Source: Ferruginibacter sp.
GTDB taxonomy: Bacteria > Bacteroidota > Bacteroidia > Chitinophagales > Chitinophagaceae
Reading direction: 5' to 3'
Length of the DNA stretch: 64,000 bases
Assembly (NCBI GenBank): GCA_025963635.1
Contig: JAOQAK010000021.1
Span: 62,001 to 126,000 of the forward strand
Part shown: piece by piece, positions 18,228 to 62,054 of the stretch
Layout: each line of letters begins with the position of its first letter
How positions within the stretch are numbered: position 1 is the stretch's first letter
Notes under the pieces: model-generated
Told to the model about the DNA's origin: nothing
The model's input: the letters and a program-made list of their open reading frames with translations, nothing else
Databases searched by the model: none
Program-made: the position numbers and the translations under genes

Positions 18228-18286
18228 TTAGCCGGTTAAGCCGGTGAGTCACTCTTTGGGAGTGACTCACCGGCTTAACCGGCTAA
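18228..18286. repeat. Palindromic hairpin element, family 1, copy A
   Basis: A perfect 27-bp stem (18228-18254 with 18260-18286) and 5-nt loop TTTGG. The inner 14 bp (CCGGTGAGTCACTC) are shared with copies at 39005-39053 and 61998-62054. The outer 13 bp (TTAGCCGGTTAAG) are unique to this site but fully paired. It lies between the SusCD-lipoprotein operon end and the aldo/keto reductase start. Confidence 0.9.
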
Positions 18287-18292
18287 CAAAGA

Positions 18293-18318
18293 AAAGACTG
18301 CCTTATGAGACAGTCTTT
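18293..18318 (-). terminator. Probable terminator of the SusCD-lipoprotein operon
   Basis: AAAGACTG (18293-18300) pairs with CAGTCTTT (18311-18318). On the minus strand it is followed by a TTTTCTTT-type tract, 175 nt past the lipoprotein stop. Copy A of the palindromic element follows directly. Confidence 0.55.
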
Positions 18319-18493
18319 ATAAAAGCGAAGATGAAACTTTCAATTGATGATGACAAATACAAACTGCGGGAGAACATCGCTCCCTCCTGCACTACTGTAC
18401 AAGTGTGCGACGCCTCCGAAGCCGGGGGTGGAAATATTGCCCGGACAAAAAAATTACTTCAACTTTAAACAGCAATCGATATTTAAACAGCAA

Positions 18494-19360
18494 CTATGAC
18501 TTTTTAAATTTGATTAAAAAAGTGCGCCCAAAACCCGCCCCTGTGGAGGTGGTAATCGTTAAGCGTACGGAAAGCGTTTTATCGCAGGGCAGTACCACAT
18601 TGTCAACGCTTGGCGCTGTTTCGGCAACGTACAAGGTACCGTTGGCGGAATACCTGCCAAAAGAAACGGGATTAACCGCTGTTGAATTGTTTGGATTGAT
18701 AGTGATCACAATGGGCTTTACATTGAAAGCAGTGGGATATACAAATGACAAATGATTTGCATCCACTTTTGTTAATGTTACCACGTCGCCAGGGAAATAA
18801 TCTTCCCATTCGTCTATGACAATTCTCACATCGCCTGCAAAATCATCCACGTTGAATTTACAAATGGCAGAATATCTTAAAAATGTACTTGCCCCGGGGA
18901 TGTTTGCTGTGCCACCGGAGAACTGTGTACCTACCGCCGGGAAGGCTGGCAGCTTTTGGCCGCCAGGCAGCGTGATATCAGCGCCGATATCAAAAAAGTC
19001 GCCCAAAACTATCAGTGAACCAAATAAGGCAATTAACTGTGCACCTGTGATAGAAAGGTTGGTAGGATAAGTGGTTACATCGGCCTTGATAGTTTTGACG
19101 ATACTTTTATTGCCGTTTTTAATCACAACGATATCCATTTTCTGTGGAGGAATATCTTGCGGAAAAAGTAAACCTACGTCGAAAGTGCCTTTGAACAAAG
19201 CAGGATCTTTACTCACATCAATAACCGCTTCACTGTTGGTAACGGCAGTTATGCTTGGCACTGGTACACGTGTGAGCGCTGGCACTTTGCCGTTATCTGA
19301 TTTCCGGCAGGAATACAATACCGATGTAAATAACAAGCTATATAAAAATACTTTTTTCAT
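18494..19360 (-). CDS. Lipoprotein of unknown function, third gene of a SusCD operon
   Basis: 288 residues from the preferred ATG at 19358-19360. A longer open frame begins 15 codons earlier, but MKKVFLYSLL...VLYSC is a clear type II signal peptide with lipid-accepting Cys18. The mature part is beta-rich, with strands such as DIVVIKNGNKSIVKTIK, and lacks recognised catalytic motifs. It lies 190 nt downstream of susD on the same strand, with a dispersed repeat in between. By context it is probably a surface or periplasmic accessory lipoprotein that binds the substrate imported by the SusCD pair. No family name can be assigned. Confidence 0.75.
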   Translation of the reverse strand: MKKVFLYSLLFTSVLYSCRKSDNGKVPALTRVPVPSITAVTNSEAVIDVSKDPALFKGTFDVGLLFPQDIPPQKMDIVVIKNGNKSIVKTIKADVTTYPTNLSITGAQLIALFGSLIVLGDFFDIGADITLPGGQKLPAFPAVGTQFSGGTANIPGASTFLRYSAICKFNVDDFAGDVRIVIDEWEDYFPGDVVTLTKVDANHLSFVYPTAFNVKPIVITINPNNSTAVNPVSFGRYSANGTLYVAETAPSVDNVVLPCDKTLSVRLTITTSTGAGFGRTFLIKFKKS

Positions 19361-19400
19361 GATGTATATTTTAAATTCAATTTTTAATGTTTCGTCTTTT

Positions 19401-19542
19401 GCCACTAATTACACTAATTGACACAAATAATACAGGGTAGTATTTTGGATGTTATTGTATTCGTAACTGCAAAAAACATTTGTATTCATTCGTGCATTCG
19501 TGGCTATAAAACCTTTTGTTTTTTCATTCGTGCATTCGTGGC
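19401..19542. repeat. GCCAC...GTGGC-bounded intergenic element, copy 1
   Basis: It begins GCCACTAATTACAC and ends CATTCGTGCATTCGTGGC at 19504. A second copy of that right end closes at 19542. The same left and right ends bound 60302-60421. It lies inside the susD-lipoprotein intergenic space. Confidence 0.6.
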
Positions 19543-19550
19543 AAACCTTA

Positions 19551-21251
19551 CTATGGCATCCAGAAAACTTTCATGCTGTTTACCAGGTCTTTTTGCGCCG
19601 GTGCATTGGAATTGGTTTCTAGCTCTGCCTGGTACCATGGCAGTGAGTTCGGGTAAGGCCTTTGCAATTGCACCTGCACCGCTGGCTGGGCCCCGGCAAT
19701 TTGCGGGTTGCCATTCACCGGTGGCTGAACAAATCCATTGGGTGCCATTACCGGATCATTGGGATTGAAAAGGATGGGATAACCCGTTCTGCGTATATCC
19801 GTATACTGATCCACGGCACTTCCAAAACTTGAAATCCATTTTTCTGTGATGATCATTTCCATCTTCTTTGCCGCACTGGCCGCATCAAATTGCGACATGA
19901 TTGCATTGATATAACTGGTGACTTTTGTGGTACCACTCAAGGCTGGAACTGACTGTGCGGGCTTGACATAGGTAGTGATCACATAATCCACTTGTTTGAA
20001 AGATTCGGTAAGGGCTGCCTGCAGCGTTGCTTTTGCATCTCCGGGAGCAAGGCCGGCCTGTATCAGCTCAGCTTCCAGGTACAACCTGTCAGCATAGGTA
20101 ATGAACCTGTAAGGTGCGGCACCGGTACCGCTGGCCGAATTGGCTATACCGCCTGCTCCATCATCATACCTTCCTCCTACCGGGTAAATACCCATGAGGC
20201 TGATTATATTTTGTGCGTTTCTATCCCTGTTGGGCCCCCTTGATCCGAAATAGATGGAAATGAATGCGCTGTCCCGGTACTCGGTGGGATCAGGTGTTAC
20301 AGCCGTTTTTTTAATTTGATTATATATATAGTAGGGCACCCGTGGGTCTTGAATGCCTGATGTAAAATGATTGTGATTGTATCCCTGCAAAATTTCATAA
20401 AACCAGGGGCTGATGTGATTACTACGCTGGGTAGCGGTGTAATCCCCGAAACCAGGATTTCTATCATCGGTTGCACCATTGGGGCCGTAAGCTAGCAGGA
20501 AACTTTCGTTGGTGGCCGCGATGAGTTTGGTGGGATCACTTAATAGCTGGGTCACTTCAGCGGAAACATTTTTTACCTTCCTGATCTGGGTGTATAATTT
20601 CAGCTTGATTGTGTTGGCCGCCTTGATCCATTTTGCGGTGCTTCCACCATAGATGATATCGTCTGCCTTGGGTTTGTTGAGGTTAAGCGCTGTAGTGTTA
20701 TTGATGTCGGCAATGCCCTCATCCAACAATGCAAACAGCTTTGGATAAATAGCAGCGTCATCATCAAATTTTGGATAGCGAATACTCGAATCCAGCCGGT
20801 TGGCTTCAGTAAAAGGAATATCACCGAAGGCATCTACAAACTGGCTATAGCCATAAGCCTTTAAAATTTTTGCAATGCCCGTGTATTGCCTGTCGCCGTT
20901 TGCGGCTGAGATTTTAATGATCTGTTCAAGATTTTCGAGCGCTCCCTGGTACATGGTAACCCAGGCGGTACCGATGTAAAAAGCTGTACCGGTAGTACCA
21001 TACTGGTCCTGGTTTTCGCGGGTAGACAACTGGTGAGTATACACAGATAATATTTCTGACAAGCCTCCAAGGCTTCCATTCCCGATGGCTAATGAATTGC
21101 CGATGGCATTTTCTGCTGTGGGAAGTAATTTGGAAACCTCCACTCTTAATGGATTGTTTGGGTCTTTATTAATGTCCAGGAAATTCTTTTTGCAGGAAAC
21201 AAAAAGCAGGCTTACCGAAAAAACGATTATGAATTTGAAACTTTTTCGCAT
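19551..21251 (-). CDS. SusD/RagB-family outer-membrane lipoprotein (SusD-like_2 type)
   Basis: 566 residues. A type II signal peptide ends in LLFVSC (Cys20), followed by the typical KKNFLDINKDPNNP. The body is alpha-helical (TPR-like) as in SusD, with YAFGDIPFTEA-like (VDAFGDIPF) and a C-terminal NGNPQIAGAQ region. The opening resembles the SusD-like_2 (PF12771) branch often paired with peptide or glycan SusC proteins. SusD lids capture substrate at the cell surface and hand it to SusC. It starts 17 nt after the susC stop, so the two are co-transcribed. Substrate unknown; no enzymes are encoded next to it. Confidence 0.92.
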   Translation of the reverse strand: MRKSFKFIIVFSVSLLFVSCKKNFLDINKDPNNPLRVEVSKLLPTAENAIGNSLAIGNGSLGGLSEILSVYTHQLSTRENQDQYGTTGTAFYIGTAWVTMYQGALENLEQIIKISAANGDRQYTGIAKILKAYGYSQFVDAFGDIPFTEANRLDSSIRYPKFDDDAAIYPKLFALLDEGIADINNTTALNLNKPKADDIIYGGSTAKWIKAANTIKLKLYTQIRKVKNVSAEVTQLLSDPTKLIAATNESFLLAYGPNGATDDRNPGFGDYTATQRSNHISPWFYEILQGYNHNHFTSGIQDPRVPYYIYNQIKKTAVTPDPTEYRDSAFISIYFGSRGPNRDRNAQNIISLMGIYPVGGRYDDGAGGIANSASGTGAAPYRFITYADRLYLEAELIQAGLAPGDAKATLQAALTESFKQVDYVITTYVKPAQSVPALSGTTKVTSYINAIMSQFDAASAAKKMEMIITEKWISSFGSAVDQYTDIRRTGYPILFNPNDPVMAPNGFVQPPVNGNPQIAGAQPAVQVQLQRPYPNSLPWYQAELETNSNAPAQKDLVNSMKVFWMP

Positions 21252-21268
21252 GTTGTAATTTTTATGGA

Positions 21269-24200
21269 TTAAAAATTAACCTTAAGGTTGATACCATATC
21301 TTTTGGTGGTAGGCGCAGCAGAGAGCTCGATACCTTGTGTGGAACTGGCGCCATAAGAATTCACCTCGGGATCGAAATTGGTATACTTTGGAAAATTAGG
21401 CGCTAAAAACCAAAGGTTCCGCCCGGACACACTTAATGTTGCTGACCCGATGGGTAATTTTTTAAAGAACGATTTTGGAAATTCATAGCCGATGGTAACT
21501 TCCCTTAGCCGGTAAACGGTGGCATCATAGGTATTCCATTCTGCCGCGGTATTGCCGCCGAAAGTGGCCCCGTTGTTGGTGTTGGGAGAAAAGTATAAAT
21601 CGTTGGTGGTAATGGCGATGGTATTCGGAATGGTTTTGCCTCCATCTAAAATGGCTTTGCCGGTAGATGGATCACCGAGTATGCCGGGGATAATCCAATC
21701 ACTCAAGCGATCTTTTGTATCCAATGATACACCCCTGCTCAATATTTGTGAAACGGTTACTGTATTGATATCTCCTCCAATGGTCATATCAAACAATGCA
21801 CTCAGGAAAAAGCCTTTGTAAGAAACCGAATTGGTGATCCCCAGTTTGTAATCCGGGTTGGGATCGCCGATGATGTCCAGTTCGTTCGACTTGATCATGG
21901 CGCCAGTGCCGGGATTAATCAGGATTGCACCGGTGGCGCTGTCCCGTAAAATCTTTTCTCCCCGTAAAAAGCCAAACGGCTTGCCGGCCTCGAGGTAAGG
22001 TCCGAAATTATTAAACACGGGCTTCAAATTAAGCCTGTCAACTCCTTCGATCAGTTCCTTAACAATGTTCCTGTTACGGGTGTATGCTGCGTGAATGGCC
22101 CAGGTTACATTTTTAGTTTGAACCGGTTTTACGGTGAGATCTATCTCAATGCCGGTATTGTTGATCCTTCCATAGTTTGTATTAAATGTGGAGTAGCCTG
22201 AAGAGGATGGAATGGAAATCGGTGCAATGAGGTTAGTAGAATTCCGGTTATACCAGGAGAAGTCGACATCTATCCTTTTTATAAAAAAACTAAGCTGTGT
22301 CCCCACCTCAATCTCTGTAGTAAATTCAGGTTTAAGATTAGGGTCGTTGGCGCCTACTGCTACTGTAGCGGTAGGTTGTCCAAGGATATTTGCGCTCAGG
22401 TTGAAAACATTATCCAATGAATAGGGCAATGCGTCCCTGCCTACTTTTGCCCATCCTGCCCGCAGTTTCGCAAAGTCAAGAATGTTGCTTTGCATTTTTA
22501 GCGCATCGGTAACAATGAGGGAACCAGATACGGAAGGATAGAAATAACTACGGTTCGCTTTTGGCAATGTTGATGACCAGTCATTTCTACCGGTTACATC
22601 CAGGAATGCGAAATTTTTATAGCTGAGTGAAAGGTCACCGTACACACCTGTTAAGCGTTGCCTTTCGTAGTAATCGCCCAATGAGGGAACAGGCACTCCA
22701 TTGACAATGGGGCCAAATATTTGTTGCGAGGTATTGCCCAATGTATAGGTGCCACGGGTGATGAATTTGTTCCCGGTGGCAATCTGGCGGGTGGTGGTGC
22801 GTTGGTTGATGTTATTACCTGCTACCAGTTTTACACCGAAATCCTTATTAATCGTTGGGTTAAAAGTTAGCAACAAATTTGATTCAATCTCCTGCTTCCT
22901 GTAGTTGTCCACCACGATTCGTCCAAGGCCTTCAGCGGCCCTGGAACTGATCTCTGTGATCTCTCTTCTGTCTAAGGCGTTTACATTGTTGCCAAGATTA
23001 TAATCTACCCTTATCCATTTGTTGACATTGAAATCGAAGTGGATACCAGCAATCGTTCTTTCTTCATGAGTAGTAGCGATATTATTTTTGGCAGACCATT
23101 CCGGGTTATCAAATTGCCCGCCGCCGTTCCAGGTAAGGTTGTTGCCTGCTTTATCCTGGTAAGGTAAGTCTGTATCCCAGTTGCGCCCTAAAAATAAAGA
23201 ACGGGCAAATAACGAAGCAGCGCCTCCTACCTGGTTTTCACCAAAAAAACCGCCCTTTTGGGTTGAGCGGCTATAACTTAAATTACCACGTACATTTAAA
23301 CCGATGCTCAATTTGGTAGCACCGCCAAGTCCGACATTTGCCCTGTTGAAAGACGAGTTGGGTACATACCCGTTTTGGGTTAATTGAGAAGCAGTAAGCG
23401 CCACAGAACTTTTTTCATCGCCGCCGTTGACCCCAATGGAGTTTTCAAAAACGCTCCCTGTGTTGAAAAGATTTTTTACATTATTAGGAAAAGCCTGGTA
23501 TTTAATATTGCCTGAGGCAGGAAACAATTCGGGATAGGCTGCCTGGTAAGATGCAAAATTCGGAACAGAATCCCGGCTGCTAAAAGCTGGTCCCCACGAG
23601 CCATTAGACGCTGGGGAAAACAGGAAATTGGCCCCTGTGCCATAATCATTTTGATATTGCGGCAGGTTGGCTATTTTTTCCATGGAAGCTGAACTGCTAT
23701 AATTTATTTCCAGGCCCTTGCGGCTTCTTGCTGCGCTGCCCGATTTTGTGGTGATGATCAACACGCCATTGGAAGCCCTGGATCCATATAACGCTGCTGC
23801 GGACGACCCTTTTAAAACACTCATTGAAGCAATGTCGTTTGGATCAAGATTGCTGATACCACTTGAATAAGCAGTGCCGCCGGAGGTTTGTGAACTGGTG
23901 GTCACCTGGTCATTACTATAGGGTACACCGTCTACTACGATGAGCGGCTGATTGTCACCAAAAAAAGATGAGTTTCCCCTGATCTGAATTCGGGTAGCAG
24001 CGCCGGGAGTTCCCTGCGAAGTACGGATATCAACACCGGCAACTTTGCCCTGTAATGATTTCAATACATCTGGTTCTGATTTCTGAAGCAGGGTTGCGGG
24101 ATCTACTTTACCCACGGAATATCCCAGGGCTTTATCGCTTCTCCGAATGCCGAAGGAGGTTATTACTACTTCTTCCAATCTTCTTTCTTCCTTGGTGAGA

Positions 24201-24481
24201 ACGATGTTTAAAACGGTTTGTCCCGCCAGGTCAACTTCCTGGGGAACATACCCTATCATGGTAAAAGCCAATCGTTGAGTACCCGCCGGAACAGATATGC
24301 GGAAAGATCCGTCTGCTCCCGTCTGTGTACCTTTTGTGGATCCCTTTGCCTTGATGGTAGCACCGGTTAAGGGAGTTCCTTCTTTATCTTCAACGATTTT
24401 TCCGGTGATGACTTTAGCTTGCGAATGTGCAAAAACTGCAAGAAAAAGCAGTGGGATAAAAAGGAGTAAATGTTTTCTCAT
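21269..24481 (-). CDS. SusC/RagA-family TonB-linked outer-membrane transporter
   Basis: 1070 residues. Signal peptide 1-20 (ends AHSQA). A carboxypeptidase-regulatory-like domain spans ~22-105 (GKIVEDKEGTPLTGATIKAKGSTKGTQT). A TonB-box-like segment follows (LEEVVITSFG), then the plug domain (~120-235) with LIVVDGVPYSNDQ and ASMSVLKGSSAAALYGSRASNGVLIITTK, and a 22-strand-type barrel. It closes with the terminal aromatic YGINLKVNF. It imports oligosaccharides, peptides or similar nutrients powered by TonB-ExbBD. It is first in an operon with SusD and a lipoprotein. No ECF sigma/anti-sigma pair is adjacent; the nearby LytTR module could regulate it, but no site is seen. Confidence 0.95.
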   Translation of the reverse strand: MRKHLLLFIPLLFLAVFAHSQAKVITGKIVEDKEGTPLTGATIKAKGSTKGTQTGADGSFRISVPAGTQRLAFTMIGYVPQEVDLAGQTVLNIVLTKEERRLEEVVITSFGIRRSDKALGYSVGKVDPATLLQKSEPDVLKSLQGKVAGVDIRTSQGTPGAATRIQIRGNSSFFGDNQPLIVVDGVPYSNDQVTTSSQTSGGTAYSSGISNLDPNDIASMSVLKGSSAAALYGSRASNGVLIITTKSGSAARSRKGLEINYSSSASMEKIANLPQYQNDYGTGANFLFSPASNGSWGPAFSSRDSVPNFASYQAAYPELFPASGNIKYQAFPNNVKNLFNTGSVFENSIGVNGGDEKSSVALTASQLTQNGYVPNSSFNRANVGLGGATKLSIGLNVRGNLSYSRSTQKGGFFGENQVGGAASLFARSLFLGRNWDTDLPYQDKAGNNLTWNGGGQFDNPEWSAKNNIATTHEERTIAGIHFDFNVNKWIRVDYNLGNNVNALDRREITEISSRAAEGLGRIVVDNYRKQEIESNLLLTFNPTINKDFGVKLVAGNNINQRTTTRQIATGNKFITRGTYTLGNTSQQIFGPIVNGVPVPSLGDYYERQRLTGVYGDLSLSYKNFAFLDVTGRNDWSSTLPKANRSYFYPSVSGSLIVTDALKMQSNILDFAKLRAGWAKVGRDALPYSLDNVFNLSANILGQPTATVAVGANDPNLKPEFTTEIEVGTQLSFFIKRIDVDFSWYNRNSTNLIAPISIPSSSGYSTFNTNYGRINNTGIEIDLTVKPVQTKNVTWAIHAAYTRNRNIVKELIEGVDRLNLKPVFNNFGPYLEAGKPFGFLRGEKILRDSATGAILINPGTGAMIKSNELDIIGDPNPDYKLGITNSVSYKGFFLSALFDMTIGGDINTVTVSQILSRGVSLDTKDRLSDWIIPGILGDPSTGKAILDGGKTIPNTIAITTNDLYFSPNTNNGATFGGNTAAEWNTYDATVYRLREVTIGYEFPKSFFKKLPIGSATLSVSGRNLWFLAPNFPKYTNFDPEVNSYGASSTQGIELSAAPTTKRYGINLKVNF

Positions 24482-24949
24482 ACGTGTTAAATTTCGCTTG
24501 TGAATACAATGAACAGGGAACAGTGCCTGCCATAATGAATATTGACGCAGTCACCGCAGCACATTGCTCAAGACAACCAAATTAAAAGAAACACCGCTGG
24601 TCAACCGTTGTAAAAGCGTGAAGTATTGAAAACAAATACCCAGTCAGAAAAAAAAGGAGTTGGCTTATACCCGTATAAATAATTTAACAACAGCTTAAAA
24701 CAATAAGGAAGATTATCCAGCGCAAAACCCGAGGTATTTTAAAAAAAGTGAATGCCTGTATTTTGAAAAAACGAGTTGCACAGAATGCGTCTGATCGAAA
24801 CGAGTTAGCAGGTAGCAGCAAAAAATGATTGGTAAATTATCGTTGCAAATTTAAAAGCGTTGCCACATCACCGAAGGCACAGTAAAGGATAATAATTCAA
24901 AATAAAAAAGAGGTTGCAAGATTAGGAATCAAACACCTTTGGGATGGGC
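24482..24949. other. Upstream region of susC
   Basis: About 470 AT-rich nt without a gene. On the minus strand TAAATTTG (24846-24853) matches TAnnTTTG. If used, it would give susC a leader of ~360 nt; chance is a real alternative in such AT-rich DNA. Confidence 0.35.
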
Positions 24950-24981
24950 AAAAAAAAGAGTCCCCTGTAAAAACAGAGGAC
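24950..24981 (-). terminator. Intrinsic terminator, minus strand
   Basis: On the minus strand, GTCCTCTGT and ACAGGGGAC (one mismatch, T4 loop) are followed by TCT and T8. It would end transcription coming from the LytS-like gene and the fragment at 25043-25189 before susC. Confidence 0.75.
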
Positions 24982-25042
24982 GTTGTGCTTTACGAAAAAC
25001 AAAATTAAGGCACATGAGAATGATGTAGGGCTATTTCAATTA

Positions 25043-25189
25043 TCAACCGATTAGTTCATTGTTTTTGTCTTCATAAAAATAGCCAGATTCACTTTTATAG
25101 AAGTCATCAAATTGATTGAACCATGATTTTTTTCTACCGAATGGCAACAAACAATGACTGAGATATTTAGCCCCGGTCGGCACCGAAGG
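25043..25189 (-). pseudogene. Possible C-terminal fragment of a lost gene
   Basis: An open frame of 48 residues ends at TGA 25043-25045. It reads protein-like (KYLSHCLLPFGRKKSW... then SGYFYEDKNNELIG), with balanced aromatic and charged residues and no start codon context. Upstream it is cut by an in-frame TGA inside the palindromic element at 25174-25197. It may be the tail of a gene truncated when that element or a deletion arrived. Family not recognised; a chance open frame cannot be excluded. Confidence 0.35.
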
Positions 25190-25309
25190 TCAGACCGGGA
25201 TGCTGATACCCGCGATGGTGGATTGACTTGAATACCGGTGTTGGAAACAATGTTAACATGCTATCGTAATCACGGTCTGACCTTCGGTGCCGACCGTGGT
25301 TACGATAGC
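25174..25309. repeat. Palindromic hairpin elements, family 2, two inverted copies
   Basis: A 24-nt core at 25174-25197 is exactly inverted at 25273-25296. Each copy is a hairpin with GGTC/GACC at the stem top and the same 14-nt loop (GGCACCGAAGGTCA or its complement). The outer stems differ. The left copy has only CCC/GGG. The right copy has an 18-bp stem (25260-25277 with 25292-25309, one G-T pair). The TAA stop of the adjacent kinase gene (25300-25302) lies inside the right copy. Confidence 0.85.
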
Positions 25310-26397
25310 ACAATCGAACTAAGATTAATCTCCAGGCATGTTTTGACCGATTCAGTTTGTATACTAACACTTAGCTGGTTACTGCCGGGATAGAGAAGAT
25401 TGAGTCGCTTTTTTACCTGGTAAATTGTATCTCTTTTAGCATTGGTGAGCGTAGAGGTTTGGTGGGGTTTGCTATTGTGGATTTCGAATTTTAAAGTATC
25501 CCTAACAACAGATAACCGGATGATCACAAAATCGGATGCATCATTTTTATTCACCTGCTGGGAAAAAACATTTTCCACGAGTGGCAAAAGAACAAAAGAA
25601 GCAATTTTTTTACCACTGATATCACCCGAAACTTCCATGCTATAATTTCCAAAGTTTTTGGTGCCTGCTCTTTCCAGCTCGATGAACTCGTTAAGAATTT
25701 GTACTTCTTTTTCTATATCTACCTGCGTATACTGGTATTGACTTACGATAAAAAGGGTGATTTTTTGAAGGCTCGAGATCATGCCCGCAATTTCAGGAGC
25801 AGTTCGCAACGATATATCATGCACCCTGGAAAAAGTATGGCCGAGAAAATGCGACTGTGTGTGATCGTTATGAATAAAAGCCTCCATCTGCTCTTTCTGG
25901 GATGTGAGTACATCATTTTCACTTTTTTTGATGTACCACATCTTCCCGAGTTTGATAGCTGCCGCGAGGCAACCTTCCATATTAAATGTCAGAAAAAAAT
26001 AAAAAAAAGCCCAAATGAGCGGGCTATCCATACTTTGTCTTTTTATACCGAAATAGTCATGAAGATGTGGAACAACGAATGTATTATATCCATGGTATAC
26101 GAAAAACCCGATTATAGCAAACAGGAACCACAACACCACCATCCAAACATACATGCCCCTGAAAAGGAAGCGGGGAAAAAGGAAATAAATAATCGAATAA
26201 CAAAAGGTCATATCGATCGGTGTGGAGGCCAATACTTCCGTAAGTGAGGATAAAAAAGCAGTGTGAAAACCATAACCGGGAGTTCTTCGAAGCGTTGCTT
26301 CTACGGTGAAATAAGATATCCAGCCAAGCCAAAAAAACACATGCCGCGAAATTCTGAAATTCGGTTTATTTGAAAATACAAGGCTGTCAATATACAT
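25300..26397 (-). CDS. Degenerate LytS-type (His_kinase/PF06580-like) membrane protein
   Basis: 365 residues. About four transmembrane helices lie within residues 18-155, followed by a linker and a LytS-like cytoplasmic region. The canonical PHFLFNSLN motif is reduced to SHFLGHTFS (His183 kept; Pro, Phe-Asn lost). The N-box survives as LPLVENVFSQQ (Asn276), but the glycine-rich ATP lid (GxGLxNxxxRL) is absent, replaced by DTIYQVKKRL. It is therefore probably an inactive or altered kinase that senses or scaffolds. It lies downstream of a receiver-less LytTR protein on the same strand. Its stop codon sits within a palindromic element. Confidence 0.8.
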   Translation of the reverse strand: MYIDSLVFSNKPNFRISRHVFFWLGWISYFTVEATLRRTPGYGFHTAFLSSLTEVLASTPIDMTFCYSIIYFLFPRFLFRGMYVWMVVLWFLFAIIGFFVYHGYNTFVVPHLHDYFGIKRQSMDSPLIWAFFYFFLTFNMEGCLAAAIKLGKMWYIKKSENDVLTSQKEQMEAFIHNDHTQSHFLGHTFSRVHDISLRTAPEIAGMISSLQKITLFIVSQYQYTQVDIEKEVQILNEFIELERAGTKNFGNYSMEVSGDISGKKIASFVLLPLVENVFSQQVNKNDASDFVIIRLSVVRDTLKFEIHNSKPHQTSTLTNAKRDTIYQVKKRLNLLYPGSNQLSVSIQTESVKTCLEINLSSIVLS

Positions 26398-38858: not shown

Positions 38859-38950
38859 AGTTTTGGTGTTTGGTTTTAAGTTGTGATCAATTTAGAATCA
38901 GCCCCGGTTCAATTTCCACATCGGCCGGGGTTTTTATTTTATAAAATCTT

Positions 38951-39004: not shown

Positions 39005-39053
39005 CGTATAACCCGGTGAGTCACTCCCAAAGAGTGATTCACCGGGTTATACG
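39005..39053. repeat. Palindromic hairpin element, family 1, copy B
   Basis: A 22-bp stem (39005-39026 with 39032-39053, one G-T pair), loop CCAAA. The core CCGGTGAGTCACTC is shared with copies A and C; the outer arm CGTATAAC is specific to this site. The nirD stop codon (TAA, 39047-39049) lies in the right arm, so the element forms the end of the nirD message. Confidence 0.9.
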
Positions 39054-39400
39054 ATGCCTATAAATATTTTACCTTCCTCTACTTTTACCGGATACGTTTT
39101 TATACTGCATTCATCACCGGTAAGGCATTCGCCTGTTGCGAGTGAAAATGTTTTTTTGTGAAAAGGACAGGCTACTTTTGGTTCATCCTGCTGTGTGCCG
39201 ATCATACCACGACTAAGCGCCATTTGCATCCGGTGCGGACATTCATTTTGTGTAGCGTACCATTCGCCGCGACGGGCAAAATGAAACAAGGCAATCTGGG
39301 TTTCACCATATTTCACGCATACGCCTCCGTTAGCAGGCACATCCTCTGTATGACATGCCGGAAACCATGTGATTGTATTTTGATCTGTGAGTGTTAGCAT
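39047..39400 (-). CDS. nirD: Nitrite reductase small subunit (Rieske 2Fe-2S)
   Basis: 117 residues, typical NirD length. The Rieske ligands are visible as CPH (Cys54, His56) and CPFH (Cys78, His81). NirD is the small subunit of cytosolic NADH-nitrite reductase reducing nitrite to ammonium with NirB. It lies 190 nt downstream of a 48-residue ORF that itself follows nirB. The last codons and the stop are built into a palindromic hairpin element, an unusual arrangement. Confidence 0.93.
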   Translation of the reverse strand: MLTLTDQNTITWFPACHTEDVPANGGVCVKYGETQIALFHFARRGEWYATQNECPHRMQMALSRGMIGTQQDEPKVACPFHKKTFSLATGECLTGDECSIKTYPVKVEEGKIFIGIV

Positions 39401-53448: not shown

Positions 53449-53515
53449 TTTGATGAGACATTTAAATTCAGGAAGAAAAATCCCGGGGCAGCATACCCCG
53501 GGAGATTATCGAAAG

Positions 53516-55113: not shown

Positions 55114-55200
55114 ATAGCAAGGTTTTTGGTGTGTATAGTTTCGAACTGCGAAAATGAACTTTTTCTCCTTGGTTTGATAGCGAAATTCACTTTTTATTTA

Positions 55201-55214
55201 CGAAACCGGTTTCG
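55201..55214. promoter_or_regulatory. LacI-type operator between MIOX and lacI
   Basis: CGAAACCGGTTTCG, a perfect 14-bp palindrome. On the plus strand it lies 19 nt upstream of TAGCTTTC (55234-55241), a near -7 box for lacI, so it overlaps the -33 region. It can serve the divergent MIOX promoter too. Same sequence context as 49992-50005. Confidence 0.82.
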
Positions 55215-55276
55215 AATTGAAGCAATTTTTGTGTAGCTTTCGGCTTTCTAAAACTAACCAAAATGAAAACCGGGCG

Positions 55277-56290
55277 ATGAATAAGCTTACGATGAAAATG
55301 TTGGCCAAAGAGCTTCGCCTTTCCGTTGCTACCGTTTCAAAAGCAATCACTGATAGCCATGAAATCAGCAATAAAACCAAGCTAAGGGTAAATGAACTGG
55401 TTCAAAAATTAAACTATGTTCCTAATCATTATGCAAGTAGTTTGGGCCGAAGGAACAGCAAAACAATTGGTGTAATTATCCCGGAGGTAGTGGATAGTTT
55501 TTTTGCCCAGGCGATAAACGGAATTGAATCTATTGCACAGGAAAAAGGCTACTCCGTGTTAATTTATTTAACCCATGAAAGTTTTGAAAAAGAGAGAACT
55601 ATTTTGAAAGATTTTGAAAGTGGACGGGTAGATGGCGTTTTAATGTCAGTAAGCAGGGAAACCACCAAGGGTGACCACATTAATGGATTGATGGATAAGG
55701 GCATACCGCTCATTTTTTTCGACCGGGTATTCGATGGCATAGAAACTACCAAAATAATTACCAATGATTTTGAAAGTGCTTACATGGCAACAAAGCACCT
55801 CGCTAAACATGGATGCAAAAAGATTCTCTTCCTGTCATTTTCAAACATCCTTTCTATCTCCTGTAACCGGTTGAACGGCTACAAAAAAGCATTGCTTGAA
55901 TGCAATATGGAAGTAACCGATAAAAATATACTCAACTTCAACAATGATCCGAAATCGGATTACCTGCTTTTAAAGAAAAAATTAAAATCTGCAAAACGGG
56001 TAGATGGCATTTTAGCCTCGGTGGAAAAACTTTCTTTTCCAATTTACCAGGCGTGTGAAGAATTGAAGCTTACCATACCAGGTGATGTGCAGGTGATCAG
56101 TTTTTCTAATTTAGATACTGCTTCCTTTTTAAATCCACCGCTTACTACCATTGCCCAGCCTGCATTTGAAATTGGAAGAACAGCAGCTTCGATATTGATG
56201 AAAGCTTTGGGAAGAAAGGCTTTTGAATTGCAAAAAGAAGATATTGTGATACCTTCTACTTTGGTGTTGAGGAGGTCAACCTACATTTAG
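55277..56290 (+). CDS. LacI-family transcriptional regulator
   Basis: 337 residues from ATG 55277 (MNKLTMKMLAKELRLSVATVSKAI). The open frame extends 20 codons upstream, but the HTH normally begins at the N-terminus and a -7-like box lies in that extension. The LacI HTH and hinge helix (YVPNHYASSLGRR) are followed by a periplasmic-binding-protein-like sensor (TIGVIIPEVVDSFFAQAINGIE, TTIAQPAFEIGRTAA). Flanked by its presumed operator, it probably represses lacI, MIOX and the distant susCD until the inducing sugar or inositol derivative is present. Confidence 0.92.
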   Translation: MNKLTMKMLAKELRLSVATVSKAITDSHEISNKTKLRVNELVQKLNYVPNHYASSLGRRNSKTIGVIIPEVVDSFFAQAINGIESIAQEKGYSVLIYLTHESFEKERTILKDFESGRVDGVLMSVSRETTKGDHINGLMDKGIPLIFFDRVFDGIETTKIITNDFESAYMATKHLAKHGCKKILFLSFSNILSISCNRLNGYKKALLECNMEVTDKNILNFNNDPKSDYLLLKKKLKSAKRVDGILASVEKLSFPIYQACEELKLTIPGDVQVISFSNLDTASFLNPPLTTIAQPAFEIGRTAASILMKALGRKAFELQKEDIVIPSTLVLRRSTYI

Positions 56291-56303
56291 CCCGGCCCCC
56301 CTG

Positions 56304-56321
56304 CCCCGCTAGCCAGCGGGG
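56304..56321. terminator. GC-rich hairpin after lacI
   Basis: CCCCGCT (56304-56310) pairs with AGCGGGG (56315-56321), loop AGCC, 14 nt after the lacI stop. No T tract; probable transcript end between convergent genes. Confidence 0.5.
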
Positions 56322-56385
56322 GGCTTGTACTCTGTGAACTCTTGTAGAATAACCTGAAGCTATTTACTACGTATCTGTTTATTTA

Positions 56386-57501
56386 TTAACTGATCATGAT
56401 TTTTTTTCCTGTTGCGGCGGCTTCATAAATGGCTTGCAATACTTTCATATCCTTCCATCCTTCCTCGCCTGTTATGTGATTGGGGAGTTGCTTGTTTTCC
56501 AATAAAACTTTTGCAATGGCATCGCATTGGACAGCTTGCTGGTTGATGACAGGAAAACTCAATTCGCCTTTGCTTGTTCTTCCTTTGAAAGGGCCATAAC
56601 TGATCGCCGGACTTAGCTCAAAAAACCCCTCATCTGCCGATGCGAAAAACCGGTCGATATTACAATTATAAGTACTTGATGATGTGCCGACAGCTCCGCT
56701 GGGAAATTGCAGTTGCCAGGTGATGGATTCTTCTACTTCCTTAAATAAATTTTTGTTGTTGACGGGGCCAAATTGTGCTGTAACTGACACCGGTTCTTCT
56801 CCCAATACATAGCGGTTGCACTGTACGCAATACACCCCCAGGTTCATCAATGGGCCGCCGCCGGATAGTGCTTTCTTTAGCCGCCATTCATTTGGATCGC
56901 CGCTTTTATATCCAAGTGACGATTCAATTAAACGGACCTGGCCGAAAACCTTTTCCTGCCCAAGCCTTTTAATTTCCATATTATACGGTTCGTAGTGCAA
57001 CCGGTAGCCGACAGCCAACTGTACACCTGTCTTTTTACATGCATCAATCATTTCCCTGCAATCAGCGGCGGTGATGGCCATGGGCTTTTCTACAATCACA
57101 TGTTTACCCGCTTTTGCCGCACGGATAGTATATTCTTTATGCATTGCATTCGGTAACACTACATACACAAGATCAATGTCTTTATTATTGGCGATTTCAT
57201 CGAAATTCTGGTAATTGTAAATATTTTTTTGCGGGATAGCATACTTCTTTTGCCATTCCACGGCTTTTGATGGAGTGCCCGTTATGATGCCTGCTAACCT
57301 GCAATAGGTCGAAGCTTCAAGGCCGCTGGCCAGATAGCCTGCGTACCTCCCTAAACCACAAAGTGCGATATTCAATTTTTTGCCCTCGTAATTAACTGCT
57401 TCGGAAATATTCACAAATGACGGAAGCGTGGCAGCCATTGCAGCAGCACCGGCGCCAACACCCATATTTTGCAAGAATGAACGGCGTGATAAAATTTTCA
57501 T
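56386..57501 (-). CDS. Tat-exported Gfo/Idh/MocA-family oxidoreductase
   Basis: 371 residues. A Tat signal is visible (SRRSFLQNM then an Ala/Gly-rich stretch), followed by a Rossmann domain (IALCGLGRYAGYLASGLE) and the family Lys in VIVEKPMAI, with the C-terminal GFO_IDH_MocA domain (GGGPLMNLGVYCVQ). Members bind NAD(P) tightly and interconvert sugars or oxidise inositols (IolG relatives). Like glucose-fructose oxidoreductase it is exported with its cofactor. At the edge of the inositol locus it may convert an inositol or sugar substrate in the periplasm; the actual substrate is unknown. Confidence 0.88.
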   Translation of the reverse strand: MKILSRRSFLQNMGVGAGAAAMAATLPSFVNISEAVNYEGKKLNIALCGLGRYAGYLASGLEASTYCRLAGIITGTPSKAVEWQKKYAIPQKNIYNYQNFDEIANNKDIDLVYVVLPNAMHKEYTIRAAKAGKHVIVEKPMAITAADCREMIDACKKTGVQLAVGYRLHYEPYNMEIKRLGQEKVFGQVRLIESSLGYKSGDPNEWRLKKALSGGGPLMNLGVYCVQCNRYVLGEEPVSVTAQFGPVNNKNLFKEVEESITWQLQFPSGAVGTSSSTYNCNIDRFFASADEGFFELSPAISYGPFKGRTSKGELSFPVINQQAVQCDAIAKVLLENKQLPNHITGEEGWKDMKVLQAIYEAAATGKKIMIS

Positions 57502-57557
57502 TGCTGTTTCTTTTGGTGACTAATTTACGAAAGAACTGTCTCCCCGCGGGCATCCTG

Positions 57558-58757
57558 CTAATAAATCCCCGCATGATTTACCAGGAACTTTTTTGCATCC
57601 CTGCATTCCTCCACATTATACGAAGACCAGAAAAAGTCGTACAAGCCATTCATTAGGTAAACCTTTTTATACCCTTTTTTGGCAAGCATTCCTGCAAACT
57701 GGTATGCTTCTCCACGACCGTATACAAGGATTGGCAAAGCTTTATCAGTTGGTAATGAGTAATGTTCAAAATCCTTTTCCGCAACATTTATAGCGTTCCG
57801 GATATTGCCAAGGTTTTTCCAGCTTAACTTGTCCCGGTTTTCAAATTCTGATGCAGGCCGGGTATCATAGATGGCTAGATTGGATTCATTTTTTAACAAC
57901 TTAAGTGCACGGACAGGATTAACTATTTTGAAGGGCAGGCTGGGTTCAAGAAAATTAAGGTTCTCGTCGCTTGCAACGAGGTCATTTAAACCTCCCAGTA
58001 AATGATACACGCTTGTAAATCCCGCTGATGCCAATTCGGTGGCGGCCCTTGCGGCATCACCATCTCCGCTGGCTACGTATAAGAGTATCGGTTTTTGTTT
58101 ATGTTTTTCCAGTTCAGAAAGCCTTTGTTTTAAATTCGCATAAGGAATATTAATAGCTCCCCTCACCCTGCCAATGTTGTTTTCTGCGGCCGAATCTTTT
58201 GAAACGAATTGTAGTTCAGGTCTTATGTCCACCACCACTAAATCCGGTTCACTTTTAAGCATGTCCACTGCTTCTGCATTCGACACATTTTTGTAGCCCA
58301 GTCCCGAAACGATCCATTCTTTTTTACAGGGAAATTCGTCCGTAGTCATCTGGTTTAGATGCGACATGCCACCATTTAGATTGTAGAAATTTGAGAAACC
58401 ATTTTCTGCGAGCAATTTACTTACCCTGCGGCTCCGCTGGCTATGGGAGCAATAGACTATTAAAGTTTTATCCCTGAACTGGTCGAGTATGGCGGGATTT
58501 TTTTTCATGGTATCAATCTCCATGTTGATAGCTCCCTTCAGGTGCCCCATGTTAAGGCTATTATACTGCGAGGTGTCACTGTATTCACCTGCTGAACGCA
58601 CATCCAGCAAAACAATCCCTGGGTTTTGCTCCGCCAGTTCACAAAGATCTTTTGCAAATATGGTCTTGTAAAGGCTGTCGAATTTTTGCGGATGCTGGGC
58701 CATCGCTGCATGAGAAACAAAGAAGAAAAACAAGTACCAGCTTAATCGTTTTTTCAT
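57558..58757 (-). CDS. Secreted protein with three tandem rhodanese domains
   Basis: 399 residues from ATG 58757 (MKKRLSWYLFFFFVSHAAMAQ), chosen because it begins a clean signal peptide; the frame is open 29 codons further. Three rhodanese-like repeats lie at about 35-145, 155-275 and 280-395. Only the first has the catalytic cysteine loop (IVYCSHSQRSRR, Cys103). The second has YVASGDGDAA and the third VYGRGEAYQFA at that place, so those lack the sulfur-accepting Cys. Predicted periplasmic thiosulfate or persulfide transferase, or a binding scaffold. Gene 57 nt upstream of the Tat oxidoreductase's start, same strand. Confidence 0.85.
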   Translation of the reverse strand: MKKRLSWYLFFFFVSHAAMAQHPQKFDSLYKTIFAKDLCELAEQNPGIVLLDVRSAGEYSDTSQYNSLNMGHLKGAINMEIDTMKKNPAILDQFRDKTLIVYCSHSQRSRRVSKLLAENGFSNFYNLNGGMSHLNQMTTDEFPCKKEWIVSGLGYKNVSNAEAVDMLKSEPDLVVVDIRPELQFVSKDSAAENNIGRVRGAINIPYANLKQRLSELEKHKQKPILLYVASGDGDAARAATELASAGFTSVYHLLGGLNDLVASDENLNFLEPSLPFKIVNPVRALKLLKNESNLAIYDTRPASEFENRDKLSWKNLGNIRNAINVAEKDFEHYSLPTDKALPILVYGRGEAYQFAGMLAKKGYKKVYLMNGLYDFFWSSYNVEECRDAKKFLVNHAGIY

Positions 58758-59036
58758 GTTGCTTTTATTGAGATGGAAAGATGATGACTTTATTGGATAC
58801 CGGGCAAATTGATTGATCAGCCAAGTGGCGAATGGACATACCAAAATAGGTTGATTTTTTATTAATGAAAATAAAATTGATGAGGAACGGAAAAAGGAGC
58901 AGTATGATTGTTTATCAATTCGTCGTCGGGGAAGATGAATGCCAACCTATCTGCTATTGAACTGATAGCGAATCGGAAATAGCCGCTTTGTTAAGCCGGA
59001 TGGTAGGTTTATCCTTGCACAGCAATTTTCGACAAT
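58758..59036. other. Intergenic region between leuB and rhodanese gene
   Basis: No gene, repeat family member or clear promoter seen apart from the adjoining terminator at 59037-59072. Confidence 0.45.
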
Positions 59037-59072
59037 AAAAAAGGCAGCGAAAAGTATTGACTTCCCACTGCC
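59037..59072 (-). terminator. Intrinsic terminator after leuB
   Basis: On the minus strand GGCAGTG...CGCTGCC (one T-G pair) is followed by TTTTTTATT, about 22 nt after the leuB stop. Marks the end of leuCD-cimA-leuB. Confidence 0.7.
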
Positions 59073-59094
59073 CGGTATAAACGTTTTGGATTTT

Positions 59095-60168
59095 TTATAA
59101 AAACTTCAAAACTTCGTTGCCCATTGCTTCTGTGCCCAGGATTTTATCTTTAGGAGTTGCCGCATCAGCAATATCGCGGGTGCGGTAACCTTCTTTTAAT
59201 ACCTTATCGACCGCACTGATCACGAGTTCGGATTCTTCCTTCATGCCAAATGAAATATCGAGCAATAAGGCAGCGGATAAGATCGAAGCCAAAGGATTGG
59301 CAACACCTTTGCCGGTGATATCGTGGGCAGAACCATGGATGGGCTCATACACACCCGTGCCATCCCCAACAGAAGCGGAGGCAAGCATGCCCATGGAACC
59401 AGCGATCTGCGAAGCTTCGTCGGTTAAAATATCTCCAAACAGGTTGGCAGTAACCACCACATCAAAACGGCAGGGATCTTTTATCAGCAACATAGCCGTT
59501 GCATCCACAAACTGGTATTCTACTTCCACATCGGTATATTCCAATGCCAGCTTTTGTATTTCCTCGCGCCATAGACGGCTTGTTTCCAACACGTTGGCTT
59601 TATCCACCGAGCACAATTTTCCGCGACGGGTTCTTGCAGCTTCGAAAGCTTTACGGCCGATTCGTTCTACTTCATACCGGCTGTATTCGGCAACATCATA
59701 GGCCGTATCTCCGTTGTTTTTCCTTCCTTTTTCACCGAAGTAAATATCGCCGGTAAGCTCCCGGAAAAATAAGATATCTGCCCCTTTTAATATTTCGGGT
59801 TTGATGCTGGATGCACTAAGTAATTCATCAAATAATTTGATCGGGCGGAGGTTGGCATACAAACCCAACTCCTTTCTCATTTTAAGTAAGCCTTGCTCAG
59901 GACGAACTTTTGCTGAAGGATCATTATCATATTTTGGATGCCCTACCGCACCGAACAATACTGCATCTGCATTCTTCATTTTTTGCAGGGATTCTGCCGG
60001 CAAAGGATCACCGGTGGCTTCTATCGCAACATGGCCGATCAATGCATCATCGTAGGTGAATTCATGGCCAAATTTAGCCGCTATTTTATCCAGCACTTTT
60101 TTACCAACTGCTGTAACTTCCTGCCCAATGCCGTCACCCGGAACGATGAGTATTTTCTTTTTTGCCAT
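59095..60168 (-). CDS. leuB: 3-Isopropylmalate dehydrogenase
   Basis: 357 residues, normal length. Motifs: IVPGDGIGQEVTA at the N-terminus, RPEQGLLKMRKELGLYANLRP (substrate Arg residues), FFRELTGDIYFG, the Mg-binding DAAAMLL-like VDATAMLLI and NLFGDILTDEASQIAGSMGMLAS, and GSAHDITGKGVANP. It oxidatively decarboxylates 3-isopropylmalate; in bacteria with citramalate synthase it also handles 3-methylmalate for isoleucine. Last gene of the leuC-leuD-cimA-leuB set; 258 nt separate it from cimA and contain a dispersed element. Confidence 0.95.
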   Translation of the reverse strand: MAKKKILIVPGDGIGQEVTAVGKKVLDKIAAKFGHEFTYDDALIGHVAIEATGDPLPAESLQKMKNADAVLFGAVGHPKYDNDPSAKVRPEQGLLKMRKELGLYANLRPIKLFDELLSASSIKPEILKGADILFFRELTGDIYFGEKGRKNNGDTAYDVAEYSRYEVERIGRKAFEAARTRRGKLCSVDKANVLETSRLWREEIQKLALEYTDVEVEYQFVDATAMLLIKDPCRFDVVVTANLFGDILTDEASQIAGSMGMLASASVGDGTGVYEPIHGSAHDITGKGVANPLASILSAALLLDISFGMKEESELVISAVDKVLKEGYRTRDIADAATPKDKILGTEAMGNEVLKFL

Positions 60169-60301
60169 TGCCGTTTTTTTATTATTATAATAAATTGATT
60201 ACTTAAGGTTGATGAGTATTGTTGCCAATAGATTTTAAAAGTATAAGAGGGCGATGCAAGGATGATGCTATGAAAACCTGAAGCCCGGACCAAAAATGTT
60301 T

Positions 60302-60421
60302 GCCACTAATTACACAAATTTTCACGAATAAAAATAACATGTCTGCCGAGACTTAGGGCCACAAATATTTGTGAGACAGAAACCATTCAAACACATTTGT
60401 GTTCATTCGTGCATTCGTGGC
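60302..60421. repeat. GCCAC...GTGGC-bounded intergenic element, copy 2
   Basis: Starts GCCACTAATTACAC and ends CATTCGTGCATTCGTGGC. The termini are as in 19401-19504, while the interior differs. An internal pair CACAAATATTTGTG (60360-60373) is palindromic. It lies within the leu gene set between cimA and leuB. Confidence 0.6.
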
Positions 60422-60426
60422 GTCTT

Positions 60427-61950
60427 CTAAATGATGTTTAGCATCTTTTCTGTTGCCTTTATTGCTGCTACCGTTTGGTCACTGTCGAGACCACGGGTTT
60501 TAAATTCTTTGCCGTTGTGTACCCAGGTAATGATGGTTTCGCAAAGTGCATCGGATTTGCCACCCGGCGGAATGCGAACAGTGTAGTCTACCAATACCGG
60601 TAAAGCGCTTTTCTTTTGCTGGTAGATTTTATTCAGTGCATTTACAAAAGCATCATACTGGCCGTCGCCCTGCGCATGCTCTTCAAATGATTCTCCTTTG
60701 ATACAAATACTCAATGTAACCGAAGGCCGCAAATCTTTTGAATGGGTGAGCACATAGTTTTTTATCTGCACCTTTTGCTCAATATTATTGCTGTCTAAAA
60801 TGTCGGAAATAATATAGGGCAGATCGGCCTGGGTAACCATTTCTTTACGGTCGCCCAATTCGATTACGCGTTGGGTAACTTTCTTCAGGTCTTCATCCGA
60901 AAGTTGAATGCCGAGTTGCTGCAGGTTGTTATCAATATTAGCCTTGCCGCTGGTTTTCCCGAGCGCATATTTACGTTCACGGCCAAAACGTTCAGGCATC
61001 AGGTCGTTGTAATAAAGATTGTTTTTTTTGTCGCCATCAGCATGGATACCCGCAGTTTGGGTAAATACGTTTTCCCCCACAACAGGCTTGTTGGCCGAGA
61101 TACGAAAACCTGAAAAAGCTTCCACCAGTTTACTGGCGGTATGCAATGATTTTTCGACCACGCTGGTTTCTACTTCCGGCATGAAATCGTTCAATACTGC
61201 GATAGCACTTGCGAGCGGCGCATTGCCGGCTCTCTCGCCCATACCGTTCACCGTTAGATGCAATCCATGTGCGCCTGCCTTCACTGCTTCGAGCGCATTG
61301 GCTATGCCCAGGTCGTAATCATTGTGGGCATGAAAATCGAAATGTAATAAAGGGTAACGTTTTACCAGTTCGGAAACATATTCAAAAGTTTCCGAAGGAA
61401 TTAAAACGCCCAATGTATCGGGTAATAAAACACGTTTGATGGGTTGATGCTGCAAGAAATCGAGATATTGTAAAACATAGGCTTTCGAATTGCGCATGCC
61501 ATTGCTCCAGTCTTCGAGGTAGATATTACATTGCAGCCCTTTTTTATTTGCGAGTGCAATTACATTTGCAATGTCTGCAAAATGCTCTTCCGGTTTCTTT
61601 TTTAACTGGTGGGTAAGATGATTTAAAGATCCCTTCGTAAGCAAATTCATTACGAGTGCACCAGCTTCCAGCATCCAGTTTACGGAGGTTTCGCCGTCCA
61701 CAAAAGTAAGCACCTCTACCTTGTCCAGGTATCCGTTTGCTTTTGCCCAATTGGTGATTTTTTTCACCGCCTGGAATTCACCTTCTGATACCCTTGCAGA
61801 AGCTATCTCAATCCTGTCAACCTTTACGTCTGTTAGCAAAAGCTTGGCGATGGTCAATTTTTCAGAAGCTGAAAAGGATACGCCACTGGTTTGTTCACCA
61901 TCCCGAAGCGTGGTATCCATGATCTCTATATGCCTGCGATTTTTTTTCAA
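60427..61950 (-). CDS. cimA: Citramalate synthase (LeuA2/CimA-type 2-isopropylmalate synthase homologue)
   Basis: 507 residues. An HMGL-like TIM barrel begins with the metal/catalytic IMDTTLRDGEQTSGVSF. It shows HFDFHAHNDYDLGIANALEAVKAG and NGMGERAGNAPL, then a C-terminal LeuA allosteric domain (VDYTVRIPPGGKSDAL, DSDQTVAAIKATEKMLN). The segments IEIASARVSEGE, MNLLTKGS and NIYLEDWSNG resemble, from memory, the Leptospira citramalate synthase rather than LeuA. The leucine and tyrosine there correspond to its pyruvate pocket. It would make (R)-citramalate from pyruvate and acetyl-CoA for threonine-independent isoleucine synthesis. An IPMS role is the alternative. Confidence 0.82.
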   Translation of the reverse strand: MKKNRRHIEIMDTTLRDGEQTSGVSFSASEKLTIAKLLLTDVKVDRIEIASARVSEGEFQAVKKITNWAKANGYLDKVEVLTFVDGETSVNWMLEAGALVMNLLTKGSLNHLTHQLKKKPEEHFADIANVIALANKKGLQCNIYLEDWSNGMRNSKAYVLQYLDFLQHQPIKRVLLPDTLGVLIPSETFEYVSELVKRYPLLHFDFHAHNDYDLGIANALEAVKAGAHGLHLTVNGMGERAGNAPLASAIAVLNDFMPEVETSVVEKSLHTASKLVEAFSGFRISANKPVVGENVFTQTAGIHADGDKKNNLYYNDLMPERFGRERKYALGKTSGKANIDNNLQQLGIQLSDEDLKKVTQRVIELGDRKEMVTQADLPYIISDILDSNNIEQKVQIKNYVLTHSKDLRPSVTLSICIKGESFEEHAQGDGQYDAFVNALNKIYQQKKSALPVLVDYTVRIPPGGKSDALCETIITWVHNGKEFKTRGLDSDQTVAAIKATEKMLNII

Positions 61951-61997
61951 TGAATAGAAAGACTGTGTTTATTTGGAAGTTTGAGTGGACGTCGCCT

Positions 61998-62054
61998 CGT
62001 TCCGTTTCCCCGGTGAGTCACTCTTTAGGAGTGACTCACCGGGGAAACGGAACG
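61998..62054. repeat. Palindromic hairpin element, family 1, copy C
   Basis: A perfect 26-bp stem (61998-62023 with 62029-62054), loop TTTAG. Core CCGGTGAGTCACTC as in copies A and B; outer arm CGTTCCGTTTCC unique yet fully paired. It lies 7 nt after the leuD stop and 47 nt before the cimA start. Confidence 0.9.

Follow-up and report, generated by a model that had tools for sequence, protein, structure and literature searches.

The 64,000-nucleotide window analysed here, positions 62,001 to 126,000 of contig JAOQAK010000021.1 (Ferruginibacter sp., assembly GCA_025963635.1), carries three hairpins with a common core, each enclosed by an outer stem that is perfectly paired yet differs in sequence from one site to the next. 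Hairpins of this family are dispersed through the host genome (G000, genus Ferruginibacter) and occur in relatives, are enriched at gene 3′ ends, and are associated with a gene whose product resembles the transposases of repetitive extragenic palindromic (REP) sequences, the REP-associated tyrosine transposases (RAYTs). They belong to a divergent single-tyrosine HUH system of the RAYT/REP type and, on balance, are probably REP-like mobile hairpins of a divergent RAYT system whose insertion is accompanied by fold-back copying of ~10 nt of flank.

A conserved core within site-specific paired stems

Three hairpins that a first-pass annotation of the window had placed at 18228-18286, 39005-39053 and 61998-62054 were all found at those positions (hairpin loci are designated by L-numbers below). 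They share a 29-nt core, GGTGAGTCACTC / 5-nt loop / GAGTGACTCACC, in which copy 2 has one wobble pair (GAGTGATTCACC), and their outer stems are perfect over 15 bp at site 1 (L002), 10 bp at site 2 (L007) and 14 bp at site 3 (L003). The full pairing claimed by that annotation thus stands, and its claim that the outer stems are unrelated holds from about the fourth base outward, but not for the three bases flanking the core, which are partly conserved and are counted in the measured stem. These core-adjacent bases differ by genome: C predominates in the host, G031 has C at −1, and in G048 positions −2 and −3 are mostly A and C. The stems abut the core directly, with no remnant of a loop between them. 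The three window copies are single hairpins rather than inverted pairs, and Rfam at gathering scores gave no match anywhere in the window. Their parts and adjoining features are as follows.

18228..18242 (no strand): outer arm 1 of hairpin 1, site-specific, 15 of 15 bases paired with 18272-18286
18243..18271 (+): conserved core of hairpin 1, 12-bp stem with loop TTTGG, covariance model 54 bits
18272..18286 (no strand): outer arm 2 of hairpin 1, partner of 18228-18242
18293..18318 (−): separate terminator-like hairpin adjoining but outside hairpin 1, downstream of gene 18494-19405(−); 1 found against 0.3 expected in shuffles
39005..39014 (no strand): outer arm of hairpin 2 distal to the NirD-like gene, 10 of 10 bases paired with 39044-39053
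39015..39043 (−): conserved core of hairpin 2, one wobble, covariance model 50.8 bits
39044..39053 (no strand): gene-proximal outer arm of hairpin 2, including the stop codon of the NirD-like gene
39047..39400 (−): NirD-like gene, 117 aa, open reading frame with orthologues compared; its 3′ end overlaps an arm of hairpin 2
61998..62011 (no strand): outer arm of hairpin 3 distal to the gene, 14 of 14 bases paired with 62041-62054
62012..62040 (+): conserved core of hairpin 3, loop TTTAG, covariance model 52.2 bits
62041..62054 (no strand): gene-proximal outer arm of hairpin 3, 7 nt past the stop of 62062-62658(−)

The gene at 39047..39400(−) is presumably NirD-like, judging by its sequence. The core pattern GAGTCACTCN5GAGTGACTC, searched with up to 3 mismatches in the window and up to 2 in the genome, matched three times in the window against 0.03 expected, and 12 times in the host genome against 0 for the reversed control pattern. 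A covariance model trained on 22 cores, in line with the genome-wide search that the first-pass annotation had proposed, located 19 hairpin places in the host (E up to 1) and hairpins in relatives, so that at E 0.01 they were present in 16 of 93 genomes among the matches listed; G031 accounted for 42 of the matches listed, both strands counted. Inverted hairpin pairs ~50-175 bp apart occur in G003, G060, G048, G063, and G043. Neither IMG/VR (exact pattern) nor plasmids (35-nt query) gave a match to the core.

Every measured host copy (18/18) has an outer stem of 5-19 bp, whereas exchanging flanks between host copies gave at least 5 bp in 20 of 306 swaps and never more than 7 bp, a contrast that upholds the earlier argument that copying of a fixed element cannot produce such stems. 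The 19th host copy, L011, was missed by the scan filter because of a core deletion and has a 9-bp outer stem by eye. The multi-genome set consists of 131 hairpins from fetched loci, not every match, of which two were excluded from stem measurement for short flanks; L011, L209, and L239 are absent from the stem scan, and the counts are not fully independent, since they include a few overlapping array members, orthologous sites of G003 and G060, and two G048 loci that are probable alleles. Unpaired copies, which the first-pass annotation had named as evidence that would tell against its view, are absent from the measured host set, but outer stems of at least 5 bp are confined to 71 of the 129 hairpins measured across 17 genomes (18/18 in G000, 12/18 in G031, 8/12 in G045, 9/13 in G048, and 0/4 in G063). 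Stems were found on 19 of 50 hairpins with a neighbour within 200 bp and on 52 of 79 isolated ones. The lengths of the 71 stems cluster around a median of 10 bp, with 39 of them at 9-11 bp. Beyond position −3, the arms of different copies show no excess anchored ungapped similarity in any of the four genomes tested.

The hairpins are concentrated at gene ends, with the stop codon of a long open frame lying within −7 to +20 nt of the arm edge at 37 of 71 stems, compared with 121 of 3000 random window positions. In the window itself, the earlier statement that all copies lie at gene ends is correct for sites 2 and 3, but not for site 1, which lies ~200 nt beyond a stop codon, past the separate terminator-like hairpin, and 88 nt before the next start. 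A T-tract (at least 5 T in 8 nt) follows the stem in 0 of 38 rows, which represent the 37 stems adjoining a stop codon, and the hairpins thus lack the T-tract by which an intrinsic terminator was recognized here.

A RAYT-like gene associated with the hairpins

Core hairpins bracket the gene for a protein of ~225 aa in G021, G045, G063, G060, G048, G003, G023, G074, and G088. In nine of the ten genomes with a strong match, this gene is flanked on either side by a core hairpin no more than about 105 nt away; in G031 a hairpin was found on one side only. The sequence contains an HUH motif and one tyrosine of catalytic type (H62, H64, and Y155, invariant in 6/6 sequences), which are the putative catalytic residues, within the motifs NH[AST]H, FQ, and Y[VT]xxNxxKH. 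The NCBIfam profile NF047646 (REP_Tyr_transpos) matched 3/3 proteins at E 7e-10 to 2e-6, with scores of 27.8-39 bits that fall below its cut-off of 80, and Pfam PF01797 (Y1_Tnp) matched two proteins weakly, at 13.5-15 bits against a cut-off of 23. An alignment of the RAYT-like proteins gave no match to the PDB by sequence. The best PDB match of a predicted structure, modelled from six sequences with a mean pLDDT of 73, is 4er8, a complex of the E. coli RAYT with a REP hairpin (E 1.2e-4; TM 0.45 by query and 0.60 by target), and the model gives the protein a predicted Y1 fold like that of E. coli TnpA-REP. The resemblance to REP/RAYT-type repeats remarked on in the first-pass annotation is thereby strengthened, through the hairpins flanking the gene, the sub-threshold profile match, and the structural match.

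Hairpins are present in 10/10 genomes with a strong match to this protein (E 8.4e-80 or better, a cut chosen post hoc at a gap in the list) and in 6/83 others (p = 1e-9). With any match at E 1e-10, the corresponding figures are 13/32 genomes with and 3/61 without (p = 4e-5), which indicates that the wider protein family includes members without this hairpin. It is this co-occurrence of gene and hairpin that identifies a RAYT/REP-type system. Ordinary Y1_Tnp genes were also considered as the source and rejected; they are above cut-off in 81/93 genomes, yet the core occurs in 0/20 of the surrounding regions, a sample that took in three of the host's six Y1_Tnp matches.

The neighbours of the RAYT-like gene vary, with L137 (G021), L134 (G063), and L136 (G045) placed differently from the locus in G003, G060, and G048, which means more than one move or loss of the gene. 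The genes beside it at L137, L134, and L136 are, judging by their sequences, presumably polA, purU or a gene of DsbA-like type. L138 and L142 of G048 lie on two contigs and are seemingly allelic versions of a single RAYT locus that differ by a compensated base pair in one of the outer stems.

Origin of the outer stems

Comparison of orthologous sites bears on which of the two arms is the copy, and at two sites, xylA of G048/G052 and L029 of G048, it supports a copied far arm and a native gene-side arm. At the first, a gene presumed to be xylA from its protein C-terminus, the gene-side arm TTAATTACAA of G048 and G052 includes the stop codon and is matched exactly, in reverse complement, by the far arm TTGTAATTAA. 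The C-terminus N[RQ][FY]I followed by the stop is found in 21/21 loci read, G048 and G052 included (three more loci were unreadable). Judged from sequence, a gene-side arm with the native stop and an exactly complementary far arm make the latter probably the copy. In 17 hairpin-free xylA loci, the sequence within 150 nt agrees with the far arm at 5-8 of 10 bases, and inverted repeats near the stop reach at most 7 bp (loop up to 12), by a measure that suits empty sites and is blind to outer stems at filled ones. G003 and G060 have a hairpin at the same xylA place with imperfect arms. At L029, which is orthologous to site 3, an arm overlaps the stop, and the aligned hairpin-free orthologues share the stop column (alignment read by eye); at site 3 itself the orthologous intergenic DNA is not alignable. 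The nirD site (site 2) is only compatible with a native gene-side arm; the stop lies within that arm, and 14 orthologues agree with the far arm at 5-8 of 10 bases. Close to the stop of one of the 14, that of G022 (one of the relatives nearest to the host), lies a 7-bp hairpin whose arms are different; it may be an eroded relative of the core hairpin, as the loose core pattern also matched there. Hairpins at the same gene border in G074/G088 and in G000/G048 have unrelated stems. G003 and G060 share all compared copies; G004 has no hairpin at the L236 site, where the intergenic alignment is weak, and the comparison at the polA site of G056 was made with a hairpin without usable stem. The suggestion in the first-pass annotation that one arm is rewritten from the other fits xylA (G048/G052) and L029 (G048); the copying may have taken place at insertion or later.

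The mechanism we favour is one in which a divergent Ferruginibacter RAYT, a single-tyrosine HUH transposase, would recognise the 29-nt core and place it into a new site, often right after a stop codon. The 3′ end of the inserted hairpin would then fold back, and ~10 nt of the adjoining host flank would be copied before the strand is rejoined, leaving flank A, core, reverse complement of A, and the rest of the site, so that each such copy would possess its own perfectly paired outer stem. From the hairpins and their sites we infer a coupling of copying to insertion, fold-back synthesis as its route, and this transposase as its agent. A more specific formulation, in which an HUH system spreads a minimal hairpin by snap-back synthesis and a ~10-nt inverted target copy replaces the direct target-site duplication, is a tentative one that we hold to be a serious possibility, short of probable. 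If true, this would amount to new insertion chemistry and a direct readout of the spread of REP elements, whose dissemination is called poorly understood in the consulted part of PMC8266576. The outer stem may be the scar of how tiny mobile hairpins spread. Were it an inverted copy of target flank, each copy would record the template side and the extent of synthesis, which would make the mechanism readable from genomes and testable in vitro with a single protein and a short oligonucleotide, and gene ends would naturally acquire new perfect hairpins through such insertions.

The same stems could arise after insertion, if the core stalls replication and the nascent strand copies itself outward, extending the palindrome and keeping it perfect as in quasipalindrome mutagenesis, with no special transposition step. 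Such template switching, described in E. coli (excerpt of PMC7202029), is the leading alternative, possible though rather unlikely as the source of the stems. It would explain why the orthologous RAYT-side hairpins of G003 and G060 have different arms, each of them paired, and why a paired A-T to G-C change separates the two probable G048 alleles in the next hairpin beside the RAYT gene; it is harder to reconcile with the many stemless hairpins in the same genomes (6/18 in G031 and 4/4 in G063), with stem lengths clustered at about 10 bp, and with the tendency, confounded by genome, of stems to accompany perfect, presumably young cores. These three features, narrow stem length, stemless hairpins alongside, and perfect cores, favour copying coupled to insertion, and both processes may act.

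Selection for a paired RNA or DNA hairpin that protects mRNA 3′ ends or acts in termination, the freely drifting arms undergoing compensatory changes, would account for the excess of stops near stems (37/71 against 121/3000), and enrichment at gene 3′ ends is also on record for REPs elsewhere (PMC3733652, in the portion consulted). The core pairs, however, are no better kept than the outer pairs, the arms have no residual similarity in the ungapped test, and no T-tract was seen in the 38 rows, all of which make this explanation improbable. Insertion of the core into the loop of a pre-existing hairpin or terminator, the other origin proposed in the first-pass annotation, is disfavoured and very improbable. 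No loop remnant separates stem from core, site 1 already has its separate terminator-like hairpin at 18293-18318, and the 64-kb window contains no palindrome with arms of at least 9 bp and a loop of 0-2 (four have arms of 8). At orthologous sites (17 xylA and 14 nirD) the far arm is matched at only 5-8 of 10 bases, and the best inverted repeat in the 17 hairpin-free xylA loci is the 7-bp one. To its credit are REPs recorded inside palindromes of other bacteria (section 7 of PMC3733652, as excerpted) and the G022 nirD hairpin, one of 14, which has different arms and may be an eroded relative. Nor is it at all likely that the stems travel with the element and merely look site-specific; L101, L104, and L011 do share part of stem and flank, but there is no overall excess similarity (ungapped test), and the xylA arm contains the native stop codon. 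A flank like AATTCGYGAATTTCCC lies 5′ of the core in several host copies (L101, L104, and L011; less clearly L009, L098, L005, and L103), and these are perhaps a subfamily with an inherited stem.

Several observations weigh against insertion-coupled copying by this RAYT. The RAYT-like gene whose search the first-pass annotation had proposed was found in relatives, flanked by hairpins, but the host, which has the most regular stems, gave no match at E 1e-10, so its hairpins were made by a gene since lost, by one missing from the assembly, or by another enzyme. L101, L104, and L011 have in common ATGAATTTyCC / GGrAAATTCGCGAAT, a longer and shifted flank to which the ungapped similarity test is blind, and some stems may thus be inherited. 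The greater frequency of stems on perfect cores (31/37) than on imperfect ones (40/92; p = 3e-5), which would be expected if stems arise with new copies, is confounded by genome, the host alone showing 9/9 in both classes. Isolated hairpins without any stem number 27 of 79. Outer positions are slightly cleaner than core positions in the host, at 1/90 and 13/216 unpaired, which is not significant (p = 0.07), and outer pairs are not significantly cleaner in G031 or G045 either. In the host nirD, the residue after FIG[IV] and before the stop is V, found in 0/14 orthologues, so part of the gene-side arm may be non-native. Upstream of the RAYT gene, G003, G060, and the two G048 loci have a hairpin at the same place but with arms that differ among them, which suggests that arms are also rewritten after insertion. 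Finally, the nearest relatives of the host are ~81% identical at the one locus compared.

Relation to known systems and other features of the window

With RAYT/TnpA-REP and REP/REPIN systems (the Bacteroidetes-type subclass 2.6 / group 5 and others) the system described here has in common a single-tyrosine HUH protein, hairpins beside the gene, and dispersed copies; the inverted pairs of some relatives, ~50-175 bp apart, correspond to the REPIN arrangement, and both kinds of element are enriched near gene 3′ ends. It differs from REPs in having no GTAG or CGTC foot, the host positions −1 to −4 being mostly C, C, C, and A/T and varying by genome, and in its low copy number (19 in the host), where >100 per genome is usual for REPs according to the consulted part of PMC2817692. 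The protein falls short of the curated cut-off of the RAYT family profile, and its motifs NH[AST]H, FQ, and Y[VT]xxNxxKH stand against NH[LIV]H, WQ, and YIH[QN]NP in subclass 2.6 (PMC6006769, as excerpted), a source whose consulted text also credits one Bacteroidetes RAYT subclass with ‘atypical secondary structures.’ Site-specific paired outer stems are not mentioned in the excerpts of RAYT/REP literature compared, and a literature search gave no paper on this element among the matches listed, as far as their excerpts extend.

Repeats inside a larger palindrome are also described for A. variabilis GTAG-15, T. roseum GTAG-23, and H. neapolitanus CGTC-1; there, in the section of PMC3733652 available, each family has one palindrome consensus, in contrast to the site-to-site variation seen here. 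Quasipalindrome template switching in E. coli likewise yields a perfect inverted repeat through nascent-strand copying, but corrects existing imperfect arms (PMC7202029, same excerpt), whereas here a ~10-bp stem is tied to a mobile core. A further example of perfect arms made of local sequence is given by the perfect inverted repeats in mitochondrial coding genes of Nematomorpha (PMC6649704, in part). The predicted Y1 fold is common to the RAYT-like protein and the TnpA of IS200/IS605 insertion sequences (IS), by structure search; the gene described here lies between REP-like hairpins, and no search for further IS ends was made.

The possibility that the hairpins are built on a repeated CGAATT motif was discarded, as CGAATT is not enriched in the window. 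Two more long inverted repeats, at 302-352 and 25259-25310, lack the core; they have arms of 20 and 19 nt and loops of 11 and 14. At 38899-38937, between the NirD-like gene and the one that follows, lies a hairpin CCCCGG-CCGATGTGGAAATTGAA-CCGGGG, which has no Rfam match in the window, recurs nearly unchanged 3′ of nirD in G022, G045, G065, and G055, and is perhaps a conserved leader or terminator element. At 62660-62715, a repeat of GGTTGAAGGTTAAT-type units has matches in many genomes of the genus, and similar repeats also occur 3′ of xylA in G000, G004, and G088.

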